Source of the DNA: Desulfopila aestuarii DSM 18488
Lineage (GTDB): Bacteria; Desulfobacterota; Desulfobulbia; Desulfobulbales; Desulfocapsaceae
Length of the DNA: 54,026 bases
Direction of reading: 5' to 3'
Assembly (NCBI GenBank): GCA_945863875.1
Contig: CAMBBS010000031.1
Coordinates: forward strand, 1-54,026
Under the pieces are notes generated by a model. That model was not told the origin of the DNA and made no database searches. It saw nothing but the letters and a program-made list of their open reading frames with translations. This document shows, piece after piece, positions 32,458-35,184 of this stretch (the stretch's first letter is position 1; the number at the start of each line of letters is the position of its first letter). The position numbers and the translations under genes are program-made.

Positions 32458-33666
32458 ATGACAGCCGGTAAAAAAATGGTTCCGACAAGGCCCGCAGGAC
32501 AGGGCGAGATGACAGATCACACGGGAATACTCGCAAAAACCTGGCCGCAAAGGGACCAAAGCACGGCGACCACCATCAACCCACCCCTTTACAAAGGCTC
32601 GACCGTCCTCTTTGATAACTATGGCGAGATGCTGAAGGTCGGCCGCCACGAATACCAAGGAATCACCTACGGCACAGACAGACTGCCGACCCAGCGGCAA
32701 TTTGAAGAGGCGATGCGAGAGCTTGAAGGAGGAGCAGTGACCAGGGTCTTCCAATCGGGCATTGCCGCCATCCAGACCGCGCTGCTGGCCTTTACCAAAA
32801 GCGGCGATCATATCCTGGTCTGTGATAACGCCTACGGGCCGGGCCAGCGATTCTGCCAAAAGGTGCTGAACAAATATAATATCGATTGTACCCTTATACC
32901 GCCCAGCGTCGGGGCGGATATTGCCGAATACATCAGGCCCAACACCGTCTTGATCCTTCTTGAATCGCCCGGCTCAATTACCTTTGAAATCCAGGACATT
33001 CCGGCAATCACCGCCATCGCCCGGCAGAGAAATATCATCACACTGCTCGATGCCACCTGGGCCACGCCGCTCTATATGCAGCCTTTTGCCCTTGGCGTCG
33101 ACGTCTCCATCCATTCGGTGACCAAATATATATGCGGCTATTCCGATGTGCTGGCCGGAACAGTGACGGTCAATGAACGGTACAGCCACACCTTTGACAG
33201 CTTTTACAAACTGATGGAAATTTATACCCCGGGAGAAGAATGTTATCTGGCCCTGCGTGGCCTGCATTCCCTTGCGACCAGACTGCGACAACACGAACAG
33301 TCGGCACTGACCATTGCCAGGTGGCTGCAGACCGTACCGGTCGTCGACAATGTTCTCCACCCGGCCCTGCCCTGCCATCCGCAACACCATCTCTGGCAGC
33401 GTGATTTCCAAGGCTCCTCGGGACTTTTCTCTTTCACCTTCCATCACGACTATGCCGATGCCGAGCTTGCCGCCTTTATCGACTCGCTGCAGCTGTTCCG
33501 CCTGGGCTATAGCTGGGGCGGCTATGCAAGTCTGCTTACCGCGGCCAAGGTCAACCGGACCATCCCGTCAAAATACGACGGTAAAACCATTGTCCGCCTC
33601 AGTATCGGCCTGGAAAACTGCGACGATCTTATCAACGATCTTGCGCAAGGTTTCACCCTGCTATAA
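32458..33666 (+). CDS. Cystathionine beta-lyase-like PLP enzyme (Cys/Met metabolism family)
   Basis: The 402-residue cytosolic enzyme belongs to the MetC/MetB PLP family: GSTVLFDNYGEM, the FQSGIAAIQTALLAF cofactor-phosphate segment, LLDATWATPLYMQPFALG with the PLP-ring Asp, and SIHSVTKYICGYSDVLAG with the Schiff-base Lys. Similarity is strongest to proteobacterial cystathionine beta-lyases (YGTDRLPTQ, GYSWGGYASLL), which split cystathionine to homocysteine, pyruvate and ammonia; substrate could also be cysteine-like. A start at the internal ATG (MTDHTGILAKTW, 32509) is possible, with similar support. hgcA begins 19 bases after its stop, so lyase, hgcA and hgcB look like one transcript. Confidence 0.9.
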   Translation: MTAGKKMVPTRPAGQGEMTDHTGILAKTWPQRDQSTATTINPPLYKGSTVLFDNYGEMLKVGRHEYQGITYGTDRLPTQRQFEEAMRELEGGAVTRVFQSGIAAIQTALLAFTKSGDHILVCDNAYGPGQRFCQKVLNKYNIDCTLIPPSVGADIAEYIRPNTVLILLESPGSITFEIQDIPAITAIARQRNIITLLDATWATPLYMQPFALGVDVSIHSVTKYICGYSDVLAGTVTVNERYSHTFDSFYKLMEIYTPGEECYLALRGLHSLATRLRQHEQSALTIARWLQTVPVVDNVLHPALPCHPQHHLWQRDFQGSSGLFSFTFHHDYADAELAAFIDSLQLFRLGYSWGGYASLLTAAKVNRTIPSKYDGKTIVRLSIGLENCDDLINDLAQGFTLL

Positions 33667-33685
33667 TTATACCAAAGAGGTTATC

Positions 33686-34876
33686 GTGACTGCATTGCCA
33701 GGACTGAAGATTGTCCCCCTGCCGCGTATTAATGAGACTGGGTGCCGCCCCCCGGCGCCTCTGCAGGCGCCGCAAGAGGTACCCGACGCCCCCTGCTGAG
33801 GCCCGAAGCCGCCTCCACGGTCCAGTGGATACGCCCGCGCCGGTTATGTTATTTATCCCTTTGTTGAGGACTTTCTCAATACGCCGATTGGCCCGGTACC
33901 ACGGGTTACCACCTCTCTGTCCATCCGCGATGGTCTTGGTACTCTGGGTGCGAGAACCGGCTTTACCCGAAATAATTACAGTATGACCCCCGGTCTCTAC
34001 TGCATCGGCACTCCCGGCCAGAACGCCCCGGTTCTCGTTACTGCCAACTACAAATTGACCTTCGACGCGCTGCGCAAGGAACTTGCCGAGATCCCCGCCT
34101 GGCTCCTCGTCATTGATACGCGCGGTATTAATGTCTGGTGTGCGGCGGGAAAAAAGACCTTTACCGCGGAAGAAATTGCCTACCAGGTACAAAACGCTCA
34201 GCTCGACCGGCTGGTCAGTCACCGGGAATTGATCCTGCCCCAGCTCGCCGCCCCCGGGGTAGCCATCCGTGAACTGAAGAAACTGTGCGGCTTCACCGGT
34301 CGCTTCGGACCGATTCTCGCCTCGATGTTGCCAAAATTCCTGCAGACCGGCAAAGAGGATGAAACGATGCGCACAGTAACGTTTTCCCTAGAAGAACGGG
34401 CCGTGCTCATCCCGCTGGAAGTCTGCATGCTGTGGAAAAAACTGCTCATGGCCCTGACAGTTTTTTTCCTGGTGTCAGGGATCTCGCCAGAGGTTTTTTC
34501 CTTTGCCGCGGGACTGGCTAGAAGCACCACACTGCTTCTAGCCACCCTTACGGCAATCCTTGCCGGGGCGGTGCTTACGCCCCTGCTGCTGCCCTGGATA
34601 CCCTTTCGTCAGTTCTGGTTAAAAGGCGCTTTAGCCGGAGGTCTTGCCGCCCTGCTGTTTTTGTTTGCTGCGGACGCCAAGCTGCATGGGGTTGAACAGC
34701 TTGCCCTGTGGCTGTGGATCACCGGCTGTTCCGCCTTTCTCGCCATGAACTTCACCGGCTGCACCCCCTTCACCTCCCTTTCCGGGGTGGAAAAAGAACT
34801 GCGCCGAGGCCTGCCATTGCAGATAGCTGCGGCAGCGCTGGCCCTGCTGTGCTGGGTGGCCGGTCCTTTTATGTAA
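33686..34876 (+). CDS. hgcA: HgcA, corrinoid mercury methyltransferase, with in-frame UGA (probable selenocysteine)
   Basis: Read from GTG (AAAGAGG site five bases upstream) the product is 396 residues with one internal UGA at codon 38. The core is HgcA: PVLVTANYKLTFDALRKEL, the cap helix INVWCAAGKKTFTAEE with the cobalt-coordinating Cys (C152), SHRELILPQLAAPGVAIRELKK, GFTGRFGPI, and about five C-terminal membrane segments (residues 245-396). It transfers a methyl group to Hg(II) with HgcB as electron donor, at the inner membrane. After the UGA the frame reads GPKPPPRSSGYARAGYVIYPF and PIGPVPRVTTSL, which resembles HgcA N-termini, yet has no ATG, GTG or TTG until codon 100. Readthrough, most simply as Cys-Sec, is therefore needed for a full protein. 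Alternative: a new nonsense mutation. Confidence 0.85.
33797..33799 (+). other. In-frame UGA codon of hgcA, candidate selenocysteine
   Basis: TGC-TGA-GGC places the UGA directly after a Cys codon and before Gly-Pro-Lys-Pro-Pro-Pro, giving a potential Cys-Sec pair at residues 37-38. HgcA-like proteins often have a Cys pair near the N-terminus (from memory), which Sec would replace. It is the only internal UGA in the gene. Confidence 0.6.
33814..33829 (+). promoter_or_regulatory. Candidate bacterial SECIS hairpin in hgcA
   Basis: TCCAC pairs with GTGGA around the loop GGTCCA, 14 bases after the UGA; 19 bases separate the UGA from the loop. E. coli fdhF SECIS has a short stem with loop AGGUCU about 17 bases after its UGA. 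Both loops contain GGUC, the part contacted by SelB. The stem is only five pairs, so this is supportive and not conclusive. Confidence 0.5.
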
Positions 34877-34890
34877 AGTGGAGATGGATT

Positions 34891-35184
34891 ATGAAAGATT
34901 TCAGATATCTTGACGAAACAGCAATTTTGAGTTTATCCGAGGAAAAGTGTATCGGCTGCGGCAATTGCCGGCTGGTCTGTCCGCACCGTATCTTCAGAGT
35001 GCGGCATGGCAAGGCCGAAATTACCGACCCGAACGCCTGCATGGAATGCGGCGCCTGCGCAACAAACTGCCCGGCGGGCGCCATCTATGTCAACCCGGAT
35101 GACGGCTGCGGCTGTGCCGCCTATATCATCAACAGCTGGATCGCCAGGGTTTTCGGTAAGACTCCCTCCGGCTGCGGCTGCTGA
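34891..35184 (+). CDS. hgcB: HgcB, 2[4Fe-4S] ferredoxin partner of HgcA
   Basis: The 97-residue cytosolic ferredoxin carries two cluster motifs, CIGCGNCRLVCP (C20, C23, C26, C30) and CMECGACATNCP (C50, C53, C56, C60). Next comes the HgcB-specific segment NPDDGCGCAAYIINSW with C73 and C75, and a C-terminal SGCGC pair (C95, C97) that may bind Hg(II). It reduces the HgcA corrinoid. The ATG follows GGAG and lies 14 bases past the hgcA stop. Together hgcA and hgcB are the accepted marker of mercury-methylating ability. Confidence 0.95.
   Translation: MKDFRYLDETAILSLSEEKCIGCGNCRLVCPHRIFRVRHGKAEITDPNACMECGACATNCPAGAIYVNPDDGCGCAAYIINSWIARVFGKTPSGCGC

Follow-up and report, generated by a model that had tools for sequence, protein, structure and literature searches.

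A probable selenocysteine-containing HgcA encoded through an in-frame UGA codon in Desulfopila aestuarii DSM 18488

The HgcAB protein pair makes methylmercury. According to PMC11588087, HgcA combines a domain that binds cobalamin with a membrane domain of five helices, HgcB carries two [4Fe-4S] motifs, and Cys93 of HgcA and Cys73, Cys94, and Cys95 of HgcB appear to be crucial for activity. The same paper mentions that there may be selenoproteins among the homologues of hgcA and hgcB. Table 1 of PMC13188914 lists both HgcA (NF040863, motif CU) and HgcB (NF040864, motif GVGU) as selenoproteins; the HgcA entry is credited there to references 61 and 63, the latter being Haft and Gwadz 2023 (J Bacteriol 205:e0025922). 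Selenoprotein HgcA is already in print, and the gene that we describe here is a further member. Its predicted product resembles the selenocysteine (Sec)-containing HgcA of that table in family, in the Cys-Sec motif, and in being encoded with a UGA codon. The partner ferredoxin has a Sec form in the same table, with GVGU, whereas the HgcB encoded next to our gene is a Cys form, with GCGC.

The gene lies in a stretch of 54,026 nt, which was analyzed as a whole and which we call the window. The encoded protein scored 406.9 bits against the NF040863 HgcA profile (cutoff, 275) over residues 71 to 395, a match that leaves residue 38 outside. The motif NVWCAAGK, with its Cys, is present at residues 149 to 156, and we take Cys152 within it to be the corrinoid-binding cap-helix Cys of HgcA. 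The gene is directly adjoined by hgcB (Table 1). By sequence comparison, the gene is hgcA, and it encodes a predicted mercury-methylating protein.

Table 1. Positions of the features discussed, numbered along the window unless another coordinate system is given
Feature	Position	Strand	Basis or remark
Cystathionine beta-lyase, upstream neighbor	32458..33666	+	TIGR01324, 408 bits vs cutoff of 365.9
AAAGAGG, probable ribosome-binding site, 5 nt before GTG	33674..33680	+	Read from sequence
hgcA, 396 aa with UGA codon 38 read as Sec	33686..34876	+	GTG start, TAA stop; NF040863
In-frame UGA, Sec38, directly after Cys37	33797..33799	+	Sequence and alignment with relatives
SECIS-like hairpin UCCAC-GGUCCA-GUGGA; loop at 33819-33824, 19 nt after UGA	33814..33829	+	Fold and comparison
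Cys152 of NVWCAAGK	34139..34141	+	Invariant across alignments
hgcB ferredoxin, Cys form	34891..35184	+	NF040864, 105.1 bits vs cutoff of 99
selC*-like tRNA-Cys (GCA)	L013 1501-1590 = G000:C30:43537-43626	-	RF01852, over cutoff

A first, sequence-only reading of the window had described a GTG start with a ribosome-binding site, the GTG standing 19 bases past the upstream gene, and a UGA at codon 38 directly after a Cys codon, and both descriptions hold (Table 1). It had also claimed that the 61 codons after the UGA are open and contain no ATG, GTG, or TTG. This is correct as well, as the first such codon past the UGA is codon 100 (ATG at 33983). Codon 38 is the single in-frame UGA in hgcA, and from there the frame is open to the TAA at 34876.

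We consider it very probable, on the grounds of sequence comparison, that this gene encodes a selenoprotein HgcA in which UGA38 specifies selenocysteine. The sequence-only reading had called the product a probable selenocysteine HgcA, and this proposal gains support from the HgcA identity of the gene, an aligned Cys in homologues, a conserved hairpin, and the presence of selA, selB, and selD. The reading frame, the conservation of the UGA and of the hairpin, the homologues with Cys, and the sel genes are what we observe, and from them we infer the recoding itself. According to this model, the ribosome would start HgcA at the GTG, and SelB, in complex with selenocysteyl-tRNA and anchored by a hairpin 19 nt downstream, would insert selenocysteine at UGA38. 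Translation would then proceed to the corrinoid domain and, beyond it, the membrane helices.

We looked for relatives of this gene with a pattern scan of one genome per species across 84,980 species, and 11 were found. The titles of their genomes read Desulfobulbaceae, Desulfopila, Desulforhopalus, Desulfoarculaceae, Desulfocapsaceae, Desulfobacterales, or just Proteobacteria. All 11 have C-UGA-G-P at the identical position, with conserved residues on both sides. The UGA is shared by the hgcA of a cultured relative, Desulfopila sp. IMCC35006 (L004).

The sequence-only reading had proposed a search of the genome for selA, selB, and selC. The first two are present, as one selA (618 bits) and one selB over the cutoff (353.4 bits), and a selC with a UCA anticodon was not found in the assembly. 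There are also two selD matches, and each of them holds one TGA. This suggests that the genome probably encodes other selenoproteins. The search for a UCA tRNA-Sec in this assembly, by RF01852, an anticodon-arm pattern, blastn, and ARAGORN, was negative; with RF01852, 150 of the 475 candidates from the first look were scored. The anticodon-arm pattern gave one match, a number equal to that of the reversed control, and ARAGORN sees no tRNA at that place. When a relative's tRNA-Sec locus was used as the blastn query, only its glyQ side matched, on a contig of this genome without a tRNA.

The surroundings of tRNA-Sec in related genomes offer an explanation. The assembly does contain glyQ, near position 5885 of contig C64, but the place beside it that tRNA-Sec takes in relatives is filled by another gene. 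In all six relatives examined, an acyltransferase gene (PF01553 in L079; recognized by similar N-termini) precedes tRNA-Sec, and the best match to this neighbor in our genome reaches only 24%. A tRNA-Sec hit of 70 to 73 bits was obtained in 10 of 11 genomes of the same genus, the one miss being a genome that is 56% complete. The assembly that contains the window consists of 93 contigs and is 98.5% complete. Because the usual neighbor gene also seems to be missing and the tRNA is found in 10 of the 11 same-genus genomes, an assembly gap is the likeliest explanation: the stretch with tRNA-Sec is probably missing from the assembly, perhaps with a rearrangement involved.

The lack of a UCA tRNA-Sec in the assembly also favors another decoding, in which a selC*-type tRNA-Cys would read UGA38 as cysteine. 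PMC7609411, in its account of Desulfobacterales, describes selC* tRNA-Cys that can have an opal anticodon and that occurs with a second selB (selB*) and with cysS*, and our genome does carry a selC*-like tRNA (L013), the sole RF01852 hit over the cutoff. We nevertheless find cysteine decoding very unlikely. The L013 tRNA resembles the selC* tRNA-Cys of PMC7609411 in combining a tRNA-Sec-like body with a GCA anticodon, and with this anticodon it should not read UGA; we therefore rejected it as the decoder of the hgcA UGA and regard it as selC*-like. Only one selB in the genome is over the cutoff. Ordinary tRNA-SeC with a tca anticodon is present in the genomes of 9 of the 11 pattern-scan relatives, which share some genomes with the same-genus set; in one of the other two the only hit is truncated by the end of a contig, and the last has none over the cutoff. 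Selenocysteine thus remains our reading of UGA38. As a separate observation, the selC*-like tRNA has a selD gene roughly 0.8 kb away, and similar tRNAs occur in L049 and L050.

To place the UGA among HgcA proteins at large, we turned to whole-genome searches. Of 395 genomes drawn from the phylum, 125 contained a match to HgcA, as did 145 of 257 from the class. Among the 125 from the phylum, 42 were read with UGA at the site, and G047, G266, and G287 have a TGA within the HgcA match in addition to these 42. We assembled 189 hgcA entries: the window, the 11 pattern-scan loci, 57 genome-search loci (the window again among them), and 120 loci picked by hand, mainly class rows without TGA plus phylum rows of both kinds. 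Class-search rows with TGA that had no locus were left out, except G599. Removal of 12 duplicates and of 10 entries that failed the motif search, none of which had UGA at the Sec site when read by eye, left 167 distinct loci for classification. Seventy-nine loci were flagged with U, and 8 of these flags were dropped. In seven of them the TGA is an upstream stop that falls outside the accepted range. The eighth, L255, was dropped by eye, as its second TGA is barely in range, has no adjacent Cys, and is followed by a start codon 5 codons on.

In this nonrandom sample, UGA stands at the Sec site in 71 of the 167 loci. The nearest homologues without UGA have CCGP there (APCCGPKPGPP in L143 and EPCCGPPPGPP in L152), with a Cys exactly opposite the UGA, which makes this a classic Cys/Sec pair. 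The sequence-only reading had asked for an alignment showing Cys or UGA at position 38 of homologues, and this is what we observe. More distant HgcA proteins have other Cys arrangements, or no Cys, at the site. One Cys-Cys hgcA (L168, G608:C65) carries a TAG codon in frame within its corrinoid domain, away from the Sec site, which marks a broken gene or an error.

These comparisons bear on the possibility that UGA38 is a true stop, with active HgcA made from the ATG at codon 100 or with the gene decaying. An open reading frame from 33983 does exist. However, residues conserved in relatives (GPKPPPRSS, PFV, and GPVPRV) lie between the UGA and codon 100 and so before the first downstream start, the UGA occupies one aligned site in 71 loci, and the frame past it is intact and scores above the HgcA cutoff. 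A stop at codon 38 is therefore extremely improbable. The lack of downstream starts is special to the hgcA of the window, as a start codon is found within 40 codons past the UGA in 61 of the 71 UGA loci.

The selenocysteine reading also calls for a SECIS-like hairpin. The bacterial SECIS (bSECIS) model set out in PMC13188914 has a loop of 3 to 9 nt with G in its first two positions, a stem of 4 to 16 bp, a distance of 16 to 37 nt from the UGA, and an energy of at most -7.5 kcal/mol. A hairpin with the loop GGUCCA, 19 bases past the UGA, had been noted in the sequence-only reading; it is present, has a 5-bp stem, and fits the geometry of the model. On its own it reaches -6.4 kcal/mol, short of the limit of -7.5 kcal/mol, whereas values of -10.6 to -13.7 kcal/mol are obtained when 36 to 45 nt including the hairpin are folded. 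When 50 or 60 nt of the window are folded, the hairpin is not part of the minimum-free-energy structure (-14.9 with it versus -17.0 without it). When 18 loci of the window's type were folded one sequence at a time, another structure was likewise often ahead of the hairpin. Within the window's hgcA, 3.5% of other positions hold a hairpin as good (-6.4 kcal/mol) in the range of 17 to 20 nt. Since the hairpin of the window is modest alone and is not the best structure in a longer fold, it is the comparative evidence that carries the case for selenocysteine.

We compared hairpins at or below -6 kcal/mol in the bSECIS range of 16 to 37 nt and found them in 62 of the 71 UGA loci. Of 18,460 control windows from later parts of these genes, 14.8% have such a hairpin, as have 4 of 59 Cys loci. 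With the range narrowed to 17 to 20 nt, a choice made post hoc, the corresponding values are 60 of 71, 3.3%, and 1 of 59. Cys-Cys HgcA proteins such as those of L143 and L152 match most of the same profile as the HgcA of the window and have the same corrinoid motif. They differ from it in the Cys at the Sec place and in the rarity of the hairpin.

Base pairing in the stem points in the same direction. Pairs were counted in two groups that differ in their stems, and both display paired changes: the window's group, with 18 of the 32 loci that have the UGA 64 residues before PGLY (same loop register as one another), and a second group, with 22 of the other 39 UGA loci. The covariation score was 0.235 in the window's group, against a shuffled mean of 0.066, and was reached by none of 500 shuffles; in the second group it was 0.255 against 0.153 and was reached by 1 of 500, the shuffles ignoring relatedness in both cases. 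Two of the five pair measures are weaker: for further pair types, 112 and 355 of 500 shuffles in the two groups did as well as the real alignment, and for pairs with changes on both sides, 23 and 40 of 500 did. The outer stem pair in the window's group of 18 is GC in 8 loci, UA in 6, CG in 1, and GU in 1 and is unpaired in 2.

Codon choice under the loop is also narrow. Among the 32 loci with the UGA 64 residues before PGLY, the codon for Arg45 is CGG in 31 of 31 cases of Arg, compared with 126 of 443 Arg codons further along those same genes, and the next codon is TCC in 26 of 27 cases of Ser. A scan of the window for frames split by TGA and followed by a bSECIS-like hairpin returned 8 candidates, hgcA included. 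The frame after the TGA is by far the longest in hgcA, at 358 codons, with 63 to 129 codons in the other seven. Given this length and the recurrence in 71 of 167 loci, we conclude that the pattern of UGA plus hairpin is more than chance. A sequencing error for TGC or TGT, which the Cys at this site in the nearest non-UGA homologues might suggest, is hardly credible, since the same TGA appears in assemblies of other species and the hairpin, frequent where the codon is TGA, is seldom seen where it encodes Cys.

Not all of the UGA loci have the Cys-Sec order seen in the window. The residues at the site are CU in 62 of the 71, UC in 4 (L191, L192, L244, and L247; TUC in three and GUC in one), and U without an adjacent Cys in 5 (L194, L200, L207, L236, and L238; GUS in two and GUG, LUG, and LUA in one each). 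A hairpin at or below -6 kcal/mol follows the UGA in 8 of these 9 UC and lone-U loci, and the value for L192 is -5.0 kcal/mol. The HgcA row in the table of PMC13188914 gives CU only, whereas our set also has the four UC and five lone-U loci. One assembly, G311, contains both a Cys-type hgcA (L104) and a Sec-type hgcA (L207); its listed contamination is 6%, and it is maybe a mixture.

The sequence-only reading had proposed that the pair would be a redox or Hg-binding site, and such a role is plausible. Our best guess is that Cys37-Sec38 sits on a flexible N-terminal arm, where it would act as a ligand for soft metals or as a redox pair. In this scheme it would capture Hg(II) and pass the ion on, either to the methyl-cobalamin site or to HgcB, and the Cys-Cys pair of ordinary HgcA would do likewise. 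In AlphaFold models of 12 sequences, block means were below 30 for the first 70 residues, and residue 38 of the window's HgcA could not be placed in its model (mean pLDDT, 48.4). The natural Cys and Sec versions of HgcA provide a way to probe the role of the N-terminal pair. For mercury surveys, annotation that ends hgcA at the UGA should leave the gene truncated or overlooked.

We also examined whether the neighboring ferredoxin varies with HgcA. The HgcB of the window has GCGC instead of the usual GVGC, with both Cys residues encoded by Cys codons, and its gene contains no in-frame UGA before the stop. The GxGC motif was readable by motif search in the hgcB of 138 of the 167 loci. GCGC is found in 28 of the 29 readable loci with the window's type of Sec-HgcA, and in one further locus, L161, where the N-terminus of hgcA is broken off by stops. 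GEGC occurs in 15 loci, and all 15 are beside an HgcA without a CC or CU pair. GVGC stands beside HgcA of the Sec (30 loci), CC (41), single-Cys (14), and no-Cys (8) types.

This tracking of the HgcA type by the HgcB motif may reflect shared descent only. A more tentative idea, which we think rather unlikely, is that the Cys/Sec site near the HgcA N-terminus would work as one functional unit with the GxGC site of HgcB. The two would make up a thiol-selenol relay, evolving as a set, by which Hg(II), a methyl-Hg product, or electrons would pass from one protein to the other. The tracking and the UC and lone-U variants of HgcA possibly go beyond the published Sec-HgcA. GVGU was found in 1 of the 138 readable hgcB genes (L167). 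Elsewhere in the ferredoxin, the hgcB of L253 has an in-frame TGA near the C-terminus (PPDUSDGCG), at a place where many other HgcB proteins have Cys.
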